DNA of 64,000 nt, taken from the NCBI RefSeq assembly GCF_003330725.1, contig NZ_CP030840.1:6070116-6134115 (forward strand), read 5' to 3'. Positions 14,434-21,619 of this stretch are shown one piece after another. The DNA is from Acidisarcina polymorpha. GTDB lineage: Bacteria; Acidobacteriota; Terriglobia; Terriglobales; Acidobacteriaceae. Numbering within the stretch: the first letter of the stretch is position 1; every line of letters starts with the position of its first letter. The notes beneath the pieces were generated by a model. The model ran no database searches. It saw only the letters and a list, made by a program, of their open reading frames with translations, and had not been told where the DNA came from. Position numbers and translations under genes: made by a program.

Positions 14434-17400
14434 TTAGTTGCCGCTGACCGTCTGCCGCGTAGTTGTTCGCTCGCCGATAAGGCGAACCGGCCCCAGTAGA
14501 CCTGACTCCGTCAGCGGCGAATCTTTCTCATACGCCTGATAGTCGGTGAAGGTGTAGTGCGCTGTCGCGTCCGGCTGTTGATCGCCGATGAGCCGGTTCG
14601 GCCAGAGGTTCGTCACCTTCACCTCGAGGTGGTTTACTCCTGCTTTCAAAAGGGGTGATAAGTTGACTCTGAAGGGCGGCTTCCAAAGGACCCCACCCAC
14701 CGGCGTTCCGTTGACGGATACCTCCGCGATCTCGCGAACTCTCCCAAGGTCGAGTACCACCGAGGAGCCCGCCGGAAACCAGTCTCGGTCTACATTGAAA
14801 TCCTGAGAGTAAGTCGCCGTTCCCGAAAAGTACTTCACTCCCGGATCGGCCGAGCTAGTCCATGAAGTCAGCGAAGGCAACTCAAGTACCGGCGGCGCAC
14901 CTAGATCAGGTGGGAACGCAACCTTCCATGGCCCCGGCAGTGTTGCCAGTTCCGTCTCCGTCGTTGCCGGCACTGTTCGTGCAGGCTCATTCGTCGACGA
15001 GCGGAAGATTACAAAGACCGAACCTTCAGGGGAAAGGCGGAGAGTGATCAGGGTGTGTCCATCTCTGACACGATACGAGACCGGCTCCGTCTTACCGGTA
15101 TCCGGATACCAAAGCTCGGGCGCCTTCCCGGCTACGCGGTAGGACGTCTCCACTTCCTCGGTCCGCACCATCTGGTTGGCGACAAAGTAGAGATTAGCTT
15201 CCGGAGTTCTTCGGTGTGCCCAAACCAGTTCATCCGTCGCGTTGGGTACCGGATAGCTATAGCTCGAGAGAATCTTCGGGGCCGCCGAGGTGAAGTCTGG
15301 CTGAATGCCTTGTTCGGTAAAGACTCGCTCGAGAGATGTTCCCCAATACACCTTGCCCTTGCCGTACGAGTGCGAGCCGGAAGCAGACGCCTCCGCGCCC
15401 CAAAGCGTATTCACCAGAGAATGAAGTTCCGCGCTTTCGTGAAGATCCGATAAGCTCGGCGAACCAGCCATCCGAGGCGCCACGACAACGGCGCCAGCCT
15501 TCACCAGCATCGTCAGTTGACGGACTACTGGAAGCGAGAGCGCCGTCATCTCGTCCGGAACAACCAGCACGCGATATGTCATACCCGATTTCAGCGTCAG
15601 CTTCCCTCCCGATACCGAGGTCTGGTGAAGCAGCACATCGGAGTTCAGGTAGTCATAGGAAGCCGAGACCGGGACCGCCGGAGAAAAGTGCTTCCAGAAA
15701 GGAACCGTTACCGGCGCACCTTCCCCATAGAAATACGCCACGTCCACCACCGGCTTGCCTTGCTGCAGGAGATAGGAGCAGCGGGCGAGATATCCATTCC
15801 ACGCCACCGCCTGTTCGGCCCAGGTGATGTTCCGCGTATAGTGCTGTCCATAGTAGCCCAGCGTGATGCCGGGCTTGTGCTTTCCATCGACAAACGGCTG
15901 ATGGTCCGAGGTATGAAAGACAATCCGGTTCACGCCGCGAGCGAAATTCTGGTCGGCAAGCTGTTTCAGATAGAAGGGCGTCTGGGCCCAACCTAGCGTT
16001 GTGGGGTTCGAAGTAAAAGATTCCGTAGCAATGATGGGCTTTCCATAAATATGCCCCGCCGAACTGGCCTCGCGGACATCCGCCTCCCGAGTAGGCAGGT
16101 CCAGCTGGTCCGGCATTGGCGTCCAGAACTCTCCCATCGGAATGCTGACCTGACCCTTGTTCAGCAACCCGTCTCCAGTCGTGGGCATGTAAATTCCCAT
16201 GGCCTCGGCATAAAGCCCTAAGCCTTGTTTCGCGAGGAAGTCGTTCGCGAGCTTGTAGTGGTTCTCAGCCAATAACTCCGAAAGAGTGAGCCGGTAATCC
16301 CACAGAAAACCGTCGCTGGCCTCCGAGCTCTCCACGATCCGCCCGCAGAGTACCGGCAGCCACGGGATTGGATCGTAACCGCGGCGGTTGCGAAACTCAG
16401 TCAGGATCGATTCCGTCCAGTTCTCCTGCCCGGCCTCCCAGCTATCCATCAGGAAATAGCGAAAGCTCTTGCTGTAATAAGGCGAGACCGCGCCGGAAAT
16501 CATGCCGGTATAGGTCTTCACGTAGTCGGCGACATGACTTCGACTCAGCTTATCGACTTCATAGCCAGTCGCCTCCGGGGTCGCCGGATGGTTCTTCTTC
16601 CCCGTCAGCGAATAGCCCATTCGCAGGATCACCCAATTTCCCGCCGGGACCTGCCAATCGAGAGTCCCATCCGCTCGCATCTTCGAGGTAAGGTCGACCA
16701 CATCCTGGACCGGGATGGCATCTTCTTTCGCGACCATTGGAGTCGCCGTATTCGCAGTTGCCACAAAGGTGCCAAAGCTCGCCTTGTCTTCAAAGAAATT
16801 CACCCGCGGCGAAGAGTAGAGCCGAAGCTCCGCTATCCGAAACAACTTCGGCACCGACATTCCGCGTCTCACCTGGTCTTCAGTAAGCTTTGGCTGCTGA
16901 AGCGTAACCCGGAAGTAGCGGGCCGTGATGGGAGCGAACGAGAAAGTCCTTACGGAAAACGGGCGTATCCAGGTCGGCGTATCCGGAAGCGCGACCACAT
17001 CTGTCCAGTGTTCGCCATCCGTGCTCGACGAGAACCGTCCGTTTGGGAGCGCAGGAAAACCACGGATCGGTGGAAGCCCCATCCCCAGCGTGAACGAACG
17101 CAGCGTGAAGTTCTGCGGAAATTCCCACTGGATCCAGGCGTCAGACCCATCGGCATCGCTCCCGAGATCGGCGGTAGTCGAGTAATCTCCATCGCTGAGC
17201 GCTGCTGGATTCAAGGCCGGGTCGCTCGAGGTGATTTTCGCCTGCTTCTCGAAAGCGGGTGCTTCGCGCGCGGGCAGCCGGTAAGCCAGCACCACGGAAT
17301 CGGCATAATAAGTCGGGTCTGGAGCTGCCTCTGGGGCCGGCGGCGGTGTATAGGTTGCCGGCGCGCCGCCAAGATGGGGAGCCATCGGTTGCTCCGTCGT

Positions 17401-17937
17401 CACCAAGCCCTGAAATGGACCATTGACCCGCGGCGGCTCCGCCAGCTTTCCCGAGAATGCCTGCGGACCATGAACCTCCGTCTCACTCCACACCGCTTTC
17501 TTCATCGCCTCCGAAGGCTTCACCCACGGACCGGCCGTCTCACTCCAACCTCCCGATGCCGCCATCGACATCTCCAGATGCAGCCGATCGGCCTCCCCGG
17601 CCGCGTGTTGCATCGCCGCCTTCCATTCCGGAGTCATCCAGATCACCGGCTTCATGTAATGAGGAACGCCCAGATCGCCATCGAACATCTGCATCCCGCC
17701 AATACCAACCCGGTGCATCCACTCCAGGTCGGCGGTAATGCCTGCCTGGGTGACGTTCCCACTCATCCAGTGCCACCACACCCGCGGCTTTGCGGAGTCC
17801 GGGGGAGTCTTGAAATTGTCTTCCAAAGATGTGGAAGACGAAGATGTGATCGCCTGCTGGGCCATCAGCGAAGTAGCGCCGCAAAGCAAAGCGAACGCCA
17901 TCCTCCTCTTCCACAAGCCTGACAGGCTGCGAATCAT
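14434..17937 (-). CDS. GH106-type alpha-L-rhamnosidase, copy 2
   Basis: This 1167-residue secreted enzyme is a paralogue of the 3014-6433 product. It shares the KPRVWWHWMSGNVT opening, the ATPEATGYEVDKLSRSHV block, the GHIYGKPIIATESFTS segment and the C-terminal WPNRLIGDQQPDATAHYTF and SGLLGPVRL. It has an additional Pro/Ala-rich stretch (TYTPPPAPEAAP) near the first third, which the other copy lacks. The signal peptide runs to about LMAQQ. ATG 17937 is chosen because GAGGGATCC lies just upstream in mRNA sense; the frame to 18072 would add 45 non-signal residues. Two divergent GH106 copies in one locus suggest different rhamnosyl linkages. The start lies about 200 bases downstream of the lysozyme-like gene. 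Confidence 0.87.
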   Translation of the reverse strand: MIRSLSGLWKRRMAFALLCGATSLMAQQAITSSSSTSLEDNFKTPPDSAKPRVWWHWMSGNVTQAGITADLEWMHRVGIGGMQMFDGDLGVPHYMKPVIWMTPEWKAAMQHAAGEADRLHLEMSMAASGGWSETAGPWVKPSEAMKKAVWSETEVHGPQAFSGKLAEPPRVNGPFQGLVTTEQPMAPHLGGAPATYTPPPAPEAAPDPTYYADSVVLAYRLPAREAPAFEKQAKITSSDPALNPAALSDGDYSTTADLGSDADGSDAWIQWEFPQNFTLRSFTLGMGLPPIRGFPALPNGRFSSSTDGEHWTDVVALPDTPTWIRPFSVRTFSFAPITARYFRVTLQQPKLTEDQVRRGMSVPKLFRIAELRLYSSPRVNFFEDKASFGTFVATANTATPMVAKEDAIPVQDVVDLTSKMRADGTLDWQVPAGNWVILRMGYSLTGKKNHPATPEATGYEVDKLSRSHVADYVKTYTGMISGAVSPYYSKSFRYFLMDSWEAGQENWTESILTEFRNRRGYDPIPWLPVLCGRIVESSEASDGFLWDYRLTLSELLAENHYKLANDFLAKQGLGLYAEAMGIYMPTTGDGLLNKGQVSIPMGEFWTPMPDQLDLPTREADVREASSAGHIYGKPIIATESFTSNPTTLGWAQTPFYLKQLADQNFARGVNRIVFHTSDHQPFVDGKHKPGITLGYYGQHYTRNITWAEQAVAWNGYLARCSYLLQQGKPVVDVAYFYGEGAPVTVPFWKHFSPAVPVSASYDYLNSDVLLHQTSVSGGKLTLKSGMTYRVLVVPDEMTALSLPVVRQLTMLVKAGAVVVAPRMAGSPSLSDLHESAELHSLVNTLWGAEASASGSHSYGKGKVYWGTSLERVFTEQGIQPDFTSAAPKILSSYSYPVPNATDELVWAHRRTPEANLYFVANQMVRTEEVETSYRVAGKAPELWYPDTGKTEPVSYRVRDGHTLITLRLSPEGSVFVIFRSSTNEPARTVPATTETELATLPGPWKVAFPPDLGAPPVLELPSLTSWTSSADPGVKYFSGTATYSQDFNVDRDWFPAGSSVVLDLGRVREIAEVSVNGTPVGGVLWKPPFRVNLSPLLKAGVNHLEVKVTNLWPNRLIGDQQPDATAHYTFTDYQAYEKDSPLTESGLLGPVRLIGERTTTRQTVSGN

Positions 17938-18140
17938 CAAGGATCCCTCAAGAAGCAGCCGAACCGCACGATCAGCTACCGACGTGCCTTTGTATCGGAG
18001 CGGGAGGATCTCTGTCAATCCGCAAATAGTTTCGACTGAGGAATGATGCATGTTGCGAGGGGCAGAAGCCACCGTTCAGGCGACCTTCCGGCTCGACTCG
18101 CTTCGTCTTTGGGCCTACATCGTCAGTCCGGACGACCGAC

Positions 18141-19151
18141 CTAGGTGACTTGTCGTTTTCGCTCAATCCGGGATTTCTTGCCAGGCGGAGAGCCAGAGTG
18201 ACCTCCATCCACCCCCGCGCGAAGCGCATGCACCGGTGGGCGCCGGCGACGGTGCTTCTCGACAGGCGGGGGAAGCATGGCATTTACGAGCCTTATCGCC
18301 CTGCCGGGATCCCGAGCATAATCAGGATCGAACATCGCGATCACGGTCTGGGCGCGCGTCGTGTACCGCCTCGCCCACTGGCTCTCGACGAGTGTACGTT
18401 GCACCAGTCTCCAGGTCTCCGCGTCCGTTGCTCTCACTCCGTCAGGCATGGATAAATCTCGATAGCTGGTGTCCCCATTCAGGGCACTCAGAAACTCGAC
18501 AAACCCCTCCAGGTTCACCCCCATCTGGAAAACCAGCTGACTCAACGCAAGTTGCTGCGGTCCGGACAACTCGTCAAAATTACGACAGTACGCTCTCGCG
18601 TTGTGGATCGCCTCGATTGCGGAAATCCGGAGAAGCCTCATCGCCTCCTCTTCCGTCAACTCGGGCGCTAGGGAGTGCTGCATCACCTTCCTGCGATACC
18701 GTTTCTTCGTCCAGCTCTCGAGATCGCGGTTGAAGCGCTCAAGGATCCGTTGCAATCTTTCCGGCTCAAGCCCCGCCGCCTGCCAGAGTTCAGCCGACGA
18801 AGGCTCCAGAAACAAATTCTCATTCAATGGATCCGTCTGCGGATGTTCGGTCGCCGCCACATCCAGACTGAATCCTGCGCCAATCAGTGGGCGGCTGGTC
18901 TTAGGATCGGGATAAGCCGCCAGCACCCAGCCTTCATGCCGGTTATCCCGAAGAATGTTCATTAGAGTTTGCACACTGAATTTGACATCACTGTCCTTGA
19001 AGTCGAAGAGAGTCTTGCCGGGCGGGTGCGCCGTGGTTTGTTCCGAGCTCTGTCCGATGGCTGCGGGAACGCCAAGCAGTATCCCTAAGAAGCCAGGCAG
19101 CATCGCCAACGAAATGGCTCCAGCTATCCAGGGTTTCTTCGCGTCCGTCAT
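18141..19151 (-). CDS. T4-lysozyme-like (GH24) exported protein
   Basis: The 336-residue protein has an N-terminal hydrophobic segment (residues 9-31), so it is exported or anchored. The middle resembles phage T4 lysozyme. Glu73 in RHEGW and Asp82 in YPDP keep the exact nine-residue spacing of T4 Glu11 and Asp20, and Tyr80 matches Tyr18. LSQLVFQMG (204-211) and the later QWARRYTTRAQTVIAMF match the T4 VFQMG and RAKRVITTF helices. T4 Thr26 aligns with Leu89, after a one-residue insertion. There is a long insertion after residue 95 and an Arg/Pro-rich C-terminal tail. No other phage genes surround it. A peptidoglycan-related role is likely, but catalysis is uncertain. It is divergent from the GlcG-like gene. 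Confidence 0.6.
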   Translation of the reverse strand: MTDAKKPWIAGAISLAMLPGFLGILLGVPAAIGQSSEQTTAHPPGKTLFDFKDSDVKFSVQTLMNILRDNRHEGWVLAAYPDPKTSRPLIGAGFSLDVAATEHPQTDPLNENLFLEPSSAELWQAAGLEPERLQRILERFNRDLESWTKKRYRRKVMQHSLAPELTEEEAMRLLRISAIEAIHNARAYCRNFDELSGPQQLALSQLVFQMGVNLEGFVEFLSALNGDTSYRDLSMPDGVRATDAETWRLVQRTLVESQWARRYTTRAQTVIAMFDPDYARDPGRAIRLVNAMLPPPVEKHRRRRPPVHALRAGVDGGHSGSPPGKKSRIERKRQVT

Positions 19152-19446: not shown

Positions 19447-19968
19447 ATGAGGTTATGCGCGATGAAAGTCGCATATTTCGTCTTTCTTGTACTTCAGGTT
19501 TTTGGGGTCTTCCGAGCCAGGGCTGCTGATTCGACACTTCCGGTCAGAGTGATCAGCGAGGCCGGCGCTCAGCGGGTCCTTGCGGCAGCCGAACAAGCGG
19601 CAGAAAAGCTCCACGCCCCCTGCGCCATCGCTGTCGTTGACAGGAGCGGCACGCTTGTCGCCTTCCTGAAAATGGACGGGGTCCGCGACGGCAGCCCGGA
19701 TCTTGCGATAGGCAAAGCCCGCACCTCTGCGCTGCTGCAGCGGCCGAGCGCTGAGACGGAGAGCAATGTCGATAGCGGACGCACTGCCTTTGTCACCGCG
19801 GGATTTATGACGCTCCGCGGTGGTATGCCGTTAATGGCGCAGCAGGAAGTAGTGGGGGCTGTTGGCATCGCCGGCCTCAATAAGGACAACGACGTAGCCA
19901 TCGCACAGGCAGCAGCAGGAGCGTTCACATCCATGTCAGATGCACAACCACCTCCACGCCAGCCCTAG
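19447..19968 (+). CDS. GlcG/HbpS-family exported protein
   Basis: The 173-residue protein has a signal peptide (residues 1-26, ending ARAAD) and then a single GlcG/HbpS (DUF336) domain. Characteristic segments are CAIAVVDRSGTLVAFLKMDG, the AIGKARTSAL helix and the VVGAVGIAG strand. HbpS binds haem and senses redox stress in Streptomyces; GlcG lies in glycolate operons of unknown mechanism. The actual ligand here is unknown. ATG 19447 follows a GAGGGGG ribosome site, which sits in the loop of a small ATCGC/GCGAT hairpin. The Tat-exported GH1 gene begins 106 bases downstream on the same strand, so the two may be co-transcribed. Confidence 0.75.
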   Translation: MRLCAMKVAYFVFLVLQVFGVFRARAADSTLPVRVISEAGAQRVLAAAEQAAEKLHAPCAIAVVDRSGTLVAFLKMDGVRDGSPDLAIGKARTSALLQRPSAETESNVDSGRTAFVTAGFMTLRGGMPLMAQQEVVGAVGIAGLNKDNDVAIAQAAAGAFTSMSDAQPPPRQP

Positions 19969-20074: not shown

Positions 20075-21619
20075 GTGAATCGCAGACGTTTCCTGGCTCA
20101 TTCCCTTGCACTGGGCGGAGGCTCACTGCTTACAGGCGCATCCTCTTCCCTCTCGCAGCCATCCGCTCCTAAGCCCGTCAACCCACCCCAGACCTCGTCG
20201 GCAGGCAGCTCACATTTCCCGGACGGCTTCCTTTGGGGGCTCGCAACCGCGTCATACCAGGTCGAAGGCGCGTGGAACGAGGATGGTAAAGGCGAGTCTA
20301 TCTGGGATCGGTTCACTCACACGGTTGGCAAGATAAAAGGTGGCGCAACCGGCGACATCGCCTGCGATCAGTACCATCTATACCCGCAGGACATCGCTAT
20401 CCTGCAGCGCCTCAACCAGAAGAGCTATCGCTTCTCGATCTCCTGGCCGAGAATCCAGCCAACCGGAACCGGTGCAGCTAACCAGAAGGGACTCGACCAC
20501 TACAGCAAGTTCGTCGACACGCTCCTTGAGGCCGGGATTCGGCCTTTCTGCACTCTCTATCACTGGGATCTGTCGCAAGCTCTAGAAGATCGTGGTGGCT
20601 GGCCGAACCGCGATCTTGCGGGCTATTTCGCAGACTATGCCGGAATCCTGGCAAAGAATCTTGGCGACCGCGTCACCGTCTGGGCGCCATTCAATATGCC
20701 ATGGTCATTTACCAATCTTGGCTATGGAACCGGAATTTTCCCGCCCGGCCGCGCGAACTACGCAGACTTCCTGAAGGCGGCTCACACCGTCAACCTAGCG
20801 CAGGGTGAGGCATTCCGGGCGTTGAAAGCTGCATCCTCGAAGGCAACTGTCGGCAGCGCCTACGGCATGGCTCCAGCTTACCCAAAGACAGCCAGTGAAC
20901 GGGACCGCGCCGCAACCGAGCGCTACCATGCCATGCACAATATCTACTTTCTGGAAACCGCCGTCCATGGCAGATATCCGAAGGCATTTGTTGGCGAGAC
21001 GCCCTACGAGACGATGGGATATCGCGCGGGCGACGACAGGATCATGAAGGTCCCGTTGGACTGGATCGGCTTCCACTACTACACTCGTCGCATCGTCTCC
21101 GATGCCGGCGACGCATTTCGTCCGGGCGCCGGCGGCAGCCTGGCCACCGAAACAGCAGACACCGCGGGCGGTGCCGATCGCGACACCCAAACCGGCGCGG
21201 TCATGCCCACCGAAGGACCATTGACTGATGGAGGACTCGAAGTCTGGCCGCGGGGCATCTATGACCTCGTCATGCAGATTAGTCGCGAGTATAACCATCC
21301 AATCATCGAGATTACCGAAAGTGGATGCGGTTACCTTGATTCCCCTTACGACAAGGCCGGCGGACGTGTGCCCGATACCAGACGCATCAGCTTCTTCCGG
21401 GACGAACTCGCGGAGCTGGCCCGCGCGATCGCAGACGGCGCCAAGGTGCGCGCATTTCACGCCTGGAGTCTGGTCGATAACTTTGAGTGGGCTGACGGTT
21501 ACACTCAGCGCTACGGCCTGACTTACGTGGACTACCGTGATCAAAAACGGACTGTCAAGGACTCGGGACTCTGGTATGGAAAGCTTGCGGCCAGCAACCG
21601 ACTGGATCATGACTCTTAA
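20075..21619 (+). CDS. Tat-exported GH1 beta-glucosidase-like protein, acid/base Glu replaced
   Basis: This is a GH1-family protein of 514 residues. It begins at GTG 20075 with NRRRFLAHSLALGGGSLL, a Tat leader, preceded by GAGG nine bases upstream; the frame to 19940 would overlap the GlcG gene. GH1 landmarks are FLWGLATASYQVEGAW, SYRFSISWPRI, YHWDLSQALEDRGGW and the nucleophile Glu415 in ITESG. At the acid/base position, where GH1 enzymes have NEP, the sequence reads FNMPW (Met208, codon ATG at 20696-20698). Plant myrosinases also lack this Glu and use Gln, with an external base. So it may act only on activated substrates, transglycosylate, or bind without cleaving. The frame is intact, so a pseudogene is unlikely. 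Confidence 0.85.
   Translation: MNRRRFLAHSLALGGGSLLTGASSSLSQPSAPKPVNPPQTSSAGSSHFPDGFLWGLATASYQVEGAWNEDGKGESIWDRFTHTVGKIKGGATGDIACDQYHLYPQDIAILQRLNQKSYRFSISWPRIQPTGTGAANQKGLDHYSKFVDTLLEAGIRPFCTLYHWDLSQALEDRGGWPNRDLAGYFADYAGILAKNLGDRVTVWAPFNMPWSFTNLGYGTGIFPPGRANYADFLKAAHTVNLAQGEAFRALKAASSKATVGSAYGMAPAYPKTASERDRAATERYHAMHNIYFLETAVHGRYPKAFVGETPYETMGYRAGDDRIMKVPLDWIGFHYYTRRIVSDAGDAFRPGAGGSLATETADTAGGADRDTQTGAVMPTEGPLTDGGLEVWPRGIYDLVMQISREYNHPIIEITESGCGYLDSPYDKAGGRVPDTRRISFFRDELAELARAIADGAKVRAFHAWSLVDNFEWADGYTQRYGLTYVDYRDQKRTVKDSGLWYGKLAASNRLDHDS

Follow-up and report, generated by a model that had tools for sequence, protein, structure and literature searches.

How does an enzyme of glycoside hydrolase family 1 (GH1) work when the glutamate that serves as its acid/base catalyst has become a methionine? 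GH1 is among the textbook families of retaining glycosidases, and to our knowledge the only well-documented cases in which its acid/base Glu has been lost are plant myrosinases and some animal GH1-like proteins. The question is posed by a gene at 20075..21619 (+ strand) of a 64,000-nucleotide stretch of Acidisarcina polymorpha DNA (contig NZ_CP030840.1), which we call the window. The gene starts with GTG, stays open to the stop ending at 21619, and encodes a GH1-family protein of 514 aa with a Tat-type N-terminus. The initial annotation, which read the frame as intact, also placed the change correctly: the acid/base motif NEP is NMP here, within APFNMPW, M208 being the ATG at 20696..20698 (+ strand), and the nucleophile Glu of ITESG is kept as E415, encoded at 21317..21319 (+ strand). 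It had further counted at least two base changes between Glu and Met, and indeed ATG lies two changes from GAG and three from GAA.

Pfam assigns residues 46-508 to GH1 (PF00232; E=3.8e-143; 477.6 bits against a cut-off of 22.6), and the protein also passes the cut-off of the NCBIfam beta-glucosidase profile TIGR03356 (491 bits against 478.5). An AlphaFold2 model has a mean pLDDT of 80 and a pTM of 0.83, with pLDDT below 50 at residues 60-67, 83-99, 349-367 and 471-475, the first and last of these segments being parts of the active site. A fold search with the model returned GH1 beta-glucosidases, with a best Z of 49; since identity runs from 35 to 45% among the 50 matches listed, these do not include a close member of the group that carries Met (the Met clade). 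The export region, a twin-arginine-type NRRRFL... pattern judged by eye, occupies 20075..20203 (+ strand), and RRxF precedes the GH1 domain in 67 of the 79 distinct Met sequences, some rows having been cut N-terminally by the extraction.

Is the methionine a property of this one gene or of a lineage? The 132 GH1 rows gathered (88 Met, 44 Glu) include ten repeat copies with other ends, leaving 122 distinct sequences, 79 with Met and 43 with Glu at the acid/base column and none with any other residue. Rows left out earlier were duplicates from split matches (L024, L026, L027, L029, L030, L031), L004, which is identical to L039, and L018 and L028, which were too short; L001 and L112 are the window itself, represented once as WIN. 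One sample, the best 80 of 428 matches to six peptide patterns of which one contained NMP, is biased toward Met rows. Loci from draws free of that bias supplied 12 Met and 32 Glu rows, and in these the pairing of Met208 with a histidine at position 334, discussed below, holds without exception. Of 459 columns examined in the Met clade 111 are invariant, and M208 is the sole Met in this set. The initial annotation had proposed looking for Met in close homologues, with NEP there as the outcome that would count against it; every relative read at a tblastn identity of at least 64% has NMP, and the best NEP row, L130, reaches only 62.6% and belongs to a separate sister group.

In two trees built with diagnostic columns excluded, all Met rows fall on one side of a single branch. 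The first tree held 72 Met rows and omitted columns 208, 330 and 334 (support 99); the second held 88 Met rows, nine of them repeat copies, and omitted columns 205, 208, 334 and 480 as well as nine distant rows (support 100). Both were quick searches, with SH-aLRT support only. Branch lengths within the Met clade total 18.9 substitutions per column in the second tree. Between the window gene and an 85% relative, dN/dS is 0.059 (NG86) or 0.063 (YN00); NG86 gave a value for five of seven pairs, ranging from 0.046 to 0.09 and mostly with dS past saturation, and YN00 for one of the seven. The Met-type gene is under purifying selection. With Met unchanged over 18.9 substitutions per column and dN/dS near 0.06, Met208 thus reads as a maintained subfamily trait and no error.

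The methionine does not stand by itself. In the strand motif NYY, whose Asn contacts both the acid/base residue and the nucleophile in GH1, the window protein has HYY: H334 (21074..21076, + strand) is His in 79/79 Met sequences and Asn in 43/43 Glu sequences. In RFGL, which becomes RYGL, Y480 (21512..21514, + strand) takes the position of Ttb-gly F401 and HoBGLA F417; it is Tyr in 77 of 79 Met sequences, the exceptions being L097, which has Phe, and L061, which is cut, and the Glu sequences have Phe with a single exception, L014, which has Tyr (Phe in 42/43). The mapping of H334 to Ttb-gly N282 and of Y480 to F401 uses motif spacing, a published primer and alignment to 6z1h, without superposition. 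The aglycone-platform Trp of GWEVxP is replaced in GLEVxP by L388 (21236..21238, + strand), a residue that we take, by motif match, to be the counterpart of Ttb-gly W312. The Met sequences have Leu (72), Met (2), Ile (2), Phe (1) or Trp (2) in this column, so that Trp is lost in 77/79, and the Glu sequences have Trp in 34/43. Finally, a loop insertion of about 13 residues (about 355-367; 21137..21175, + strand) with a near-invariant Thr-Glu occurs only in Met sequences: E359 of this loop is present in 76/79 and faces a gap in all 43 Glu sequences and in the three basal Met rows L095-L097. R339 is likewise present in 76/79.

Against the nine closest NEP sisters, near-fixed differences fall at columns 192, 205, 208, 223, 269, 334, 339, 358/359, 398 and 480. 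A204, W210 and W330 were considered as further marks of the Met clade and rejected, being already present in most close NEP sisters; they are probably ancestral. By the tree, the loop was gained after Met and His, since the three basal rows have both residues and lack the loop. The single change on the tree also means that the many Met-His pairings count as one event, and their weight comes from the invariance that followed. We regard the coupled replacements of Asn by His, Phe by Tyr and Trp by Leu, together with the loop, as telling more about mechanism than does the methionine alone; they were absent from the initial annotation.

What has been kept is equally instructive. Of nine glycone or catalytic positions checked, eight (Q62, R119, H163, N207, Y336, E415, W464 and W472) are invariant in all 79 Met sequences, and E415 is also Glu in 43/43 Glu sequences. 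R119 presumably corresponds, by motif match, to R75. The exception among the nine is E471, the Glu of NFEW and by position, we assume from its motif, the O4/O6 ligand E440 of rice Os3BGlu7: it is Gln in 35/79 Met sequences and in 0/43 Glu sequences. The sugar may therefore differ within the Met clade, and the Gln hints at a second shift in specificity. PMC4013033, PMC7356692 and PMC6467970 give the residues matching the invariant set roles in glycone binding or in tuning of the nucleophile.

How, then, does the Met type stand to GH1 beta-glucosidases such as the TIGR03356 type, T. maritima BglA, Streptomyces 1gnx and H. orenii BglA? Fold, nucleophile and eight of the nine checked positions are common to both, and the Met clade differs in the acid/base Glu, its Asn partner, Phe480, the aglycone Trp and the loop insertion. 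Although the profile cut-off is passed, the acid/base Glu in NEP of TIGR03356-type enzymes is Met in 79/79. Judged by these residues, the Met type is no ordinary beta-glucosidase and, as set out below, no myrosinase; what the alignments describe is a genuine and conserved variant of GH1 in which the surroundings of the acid/base site have been rebuilt. Because it passes the NCBI cut-off, the window protein, and probably other clade members too, would be named by a function that it may lack. Among the matches listed from a search of the open-licence PMC literature, we found no paper on a Met-type GH1 clade. Another GH1 domain altered at both positions is the first domain of the tandem GH1 protein PDB 8in1: by alignment, Asn-Glu of the acid/base site is Asp-Asp there, and the Asn of NYY is Ser.

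Does the protein still act as an enzyme, and if so by what means? The initial annotation named thioglucosidase-like, transglycosidase-like and ligand-binding functions as candidates. We give about an even chance to an active, neofunctionalised retaining enzyme that uses E415 without a Glu acid/base, His334 perhaps substituting. Molecular dynamics of Thermus Ttb-gly, as described in PMC6467970, show Asn282 hydrogen-bonded to the acid/base Glu164 with more than 90% occupancy and interacting also with the nucleophile Glu338. These contacts, and the swap of this Asn to His along with loss of the Glu, form the pattern that would be expected of a relocated acid/base. Change of Glu to Met would take away both the proton donor and the base, and His at the partner site would restore an ionisable group there. 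In the proposed course, E415 would attack a beta-glycoside at C1, the leaving group being one of low pKa, to yield the usual glycosyl-enzyme, from which the sugar would be released or transferred independently of Glu. H334 would most likely be the general base/acid stand-in, or else would orient an anionic acceptor or water; we favour it as stand-in because it would return an ionisable group to the spot that touches both catalytic carboxylates. It occupies the position of the partner Asn and not the acid/base position itself. In GH116, according to PMC10167657, the acid/base sits at an unusual distance and angle, so that its placement can vary in retaining glucosidases. We infer enzyme activity, the role of H334 and the kind of leaving group or acceptor, and the whole pattern suggests that the protein is a retaining enzyme, with E415 active, which serves transfer or acts on substrates with good leaving groups.

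A narrower and rather unlikely version is that the clade represents a glycoligase or transglycosidase of GH1 made by nature, whose acid/base has moved from the Glu of NEP to the His of the NYY strand, become fixed in an acidobacterial clade and passed to Alphaproteobacteria. Engineering offers a parallel, for thioglycoligases and GH1 transglycosidase mutants (Ttb-gly N282T and F401S, HoBGLA F417Y) are changed at the same positions, namely the acid/base and the N282 and F401 sites. According to PMC4803828, Ttb-gly N282T and F401S shift the enzyme from hydrolysis toward transfer, and HoBGLA F417Y, a Phe to Tyr change like that at Y480, raised transfer yield; HoBGLA N294T lowered both lactose conversion and product yield, so a change at this Asn is not uniformly in favour of transfer. 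Compared with these mutants, the Met clade is natural and fixed (79/79 at the acid/base and N282 sites, 77/79 at the F401 site), has His and not Thr at the N282 site, and has all three sites changed together. If the acid/base has in fact been relocated, the clade would be the natural counterpart of the acid/base and N282/F401 mutants engineered to turn hydrolases into transferases. A bacterial Met with a swapped His partner offers a natural test of acid/base relocation within one fold, and the clade may be a source of glycoligases that need no engineering, or of a glycosidase able to cut what other enzymes leave intact.

A lesser but serious possibility is that no residue has taken over from the Glu. 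The protein would then resemble myrosinase or an engineered thioglycoligase, accepting only donors that part with a very good leaving group, namely glucosinolate-like, acyl or aryl glucosides, and needing a strong external nucleophile or cofactor for the second step, and His334 would be only a space-filler or anion binder. Plant myrosinases, which are GH1 S-glycosidases, share with the Met clade both family and loss of the acid/base Glu, and they keep the nucleophile. The myrosinase precedent that the initial annotation invoked is a fair one, in that the plant enzymes have Gln for the Glu (PMC4926426). Thioglycoligases are obtained by exchange of the acid/base for an inert residue, and they depend on activated donors and on strong nucleophiles (PMC7519651). 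The remodelled aglycone site, with Trp388 lost, the new loop and R339, would also suit such an enzyme. Set against this, the strict His334 would be left without a reason, Met hydrogen-bonds poorly to a water where Gln does not, and none of the 25 neighbour families listed of 114 suggests glucosinolates. Two further differences from the plant enzymes are that these have Gln at the acid/base site and the Met clade has Met in 79/79, and that the Met clade nests in bacterial GH1, as judged from trees that held no plant rows. The Met type thus resembles myrosinase and the engineered glycoligases and is a member of neither.

Might the protein have given up catalysis altogether, and serve as a GH1-like periplasmic sugar binder, sensor or carrier? 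Loss of the canonical acid/base, the rebuilt aglycone site and the export-type N-terminus would all fit, but a binder would have no need of the nucleophile and of the Arg and Tyr that tune it, which are invariant in 79/79, and no conserved receptor or transporter partner appears among the 25 of 114 neighbour families listed; we consider such a pseudoenzyme unlikely. Very improbable is a phosphorylase or other transferase, conceived by analogy with GH3, in which His has replaced Glu because the acceptor is anionic. GH3 N-acetylglucosaminidases with a His acid/base, said to be phosphorylases, are retaining enzymes with His for Glu, like the role proposed for the Met type; they are of another family, and the His catalyst is reported there (by citation) and only inferred here. 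R338 and R339 lie near H334 in sequence, and the title of Macdonald 2015 reportedly ties a His acid/base to phosphorolysis. An exported enzyme would, however, lose its sugar phosphate, and RmNag3, a GH3 N-acetylglucosaminidase, is barely affected by phosphate according to PMC6987092. An error of sequencing or assembly (the initial annotation had already discounted a simple sequencing slip), or a gene in decay, has next to no chance and is ruled out for the clade by agreement on Met in 79 distinct sequences from many assemblies and by the low dN/dS, even though one relative with a Met-type copy, L128 (G195), carries a single in-frame TGA. That copy is perhaps itself a pseudogene or an error.

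Where did an enzyme of this kind come from, and who carries it? In a phylum-wide draw of 396 Acidobacteriota genomes the exact motif pattern was found in 12, from 3 of 211 genera and all in the window's family. When 160 genomes were drawn from that family, a Met copy was confirmed by residues in 12 (the source genome, G033 and the ten of L120-L129); G520 and G532 gave two more close fragments, outside those 12. The carriers are soil acidobacteria and a few other bacteria. Those named include, among the acidobacteria, Edaphobacter, Granulicella, Silvibacterium, Occallatibacter, Acidicapsa and Bryocella. Beyond the phylum the gene occurs in Pleomorphomonas, Ancalomicrobiaceae MAGs, a Rhodanobacteraceae MAG and two alphaproteobacterial MAGs. 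Since the Pleomorphomonas rows are nested deep among acidobacterial Met rows in the first tree, their position suggests horizontal transfer. The GH1 rows of three MAGs labelled Verrucomicrobiota or Actinomycetes (L065, L077, L074) also lie among the acidobacteria, and these bins are possibly contaminated. The source genome has two more GH1 genes, 62% and 35% identical to the window protein and both with NEP, and a paralogue from this genome belongs to the NEP sister group of the Met clade. Three genomes (G195, G536, G551) have, beside a Met copy, another match at 63-64%, perhaps the NEP form. The likely origin of the Met subclade is a duplicated and then diverged gene for an acidobacterial beta-glucosidase of the exported kind.

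Does the neighbourhood hint at a substrate? All-against-all ORF clustering over 111 loci and the window found no conserved operon partner, nor did tblastn of seven window neighbours against 111 loci (L001 being the window itself) find a shared one. Pfam on 75 of 131 immediate-neighbour ORFs at 70 Met loci, short and doubtful ORFs left out and the most frequent 25 of 114 families listed, likewise gave no shared partner, the most frequent family being TPR (6/75). At many loci the flanks compared were short or cut by contig ends. A gene for an HbpS-like protein (PF03928, E 1.1e-29) with a likely signal peptide lies at 19447-19968 on the same (+) strand, 106 bases upstream of the GH1 gene. A haem-linked role, an idea prompted by an ancestral GH1 (6z1h) that is said to bind haem, was dropped, because the HbpS-like gene has no match at the other 110 loci. 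The window also encodes, at 18141-19151 (- strand), a protein of 336 aa that looks exported and matches no Pfam family at E 0.001.

A GH106 alpha-L-rhamnosidase gene is found near the Met-type gene at 3 of 71 Met loci (70 and the window), which may be chance. In the window it occupies 14434-18072 (- strand), opposite to the GH1 gene and 2 kb from it; the other two are upstream and on the same strand as GH1, one (L034, 4528-7977) ending 23 bases before the GH1 gene and the other (L073, 4372-7770) lying 230 bases away. These neighbours weakly suggest plant rhamnoglucosides as substrate; their leaving groups are phenolic, and a weak acid would go well with these. At two loci a second GH1 gene of the NEP type (39%) lies about 3 kb downstream of the Met-type gene (L088, 12978-14345; L091, 12258-13664), followed by what appear by eye to be sugar ABC transporter genes. 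At four others (L066, L071, L079, L080) a divergent LysR-type regulator gene adjoins the Met-type gene upstream.
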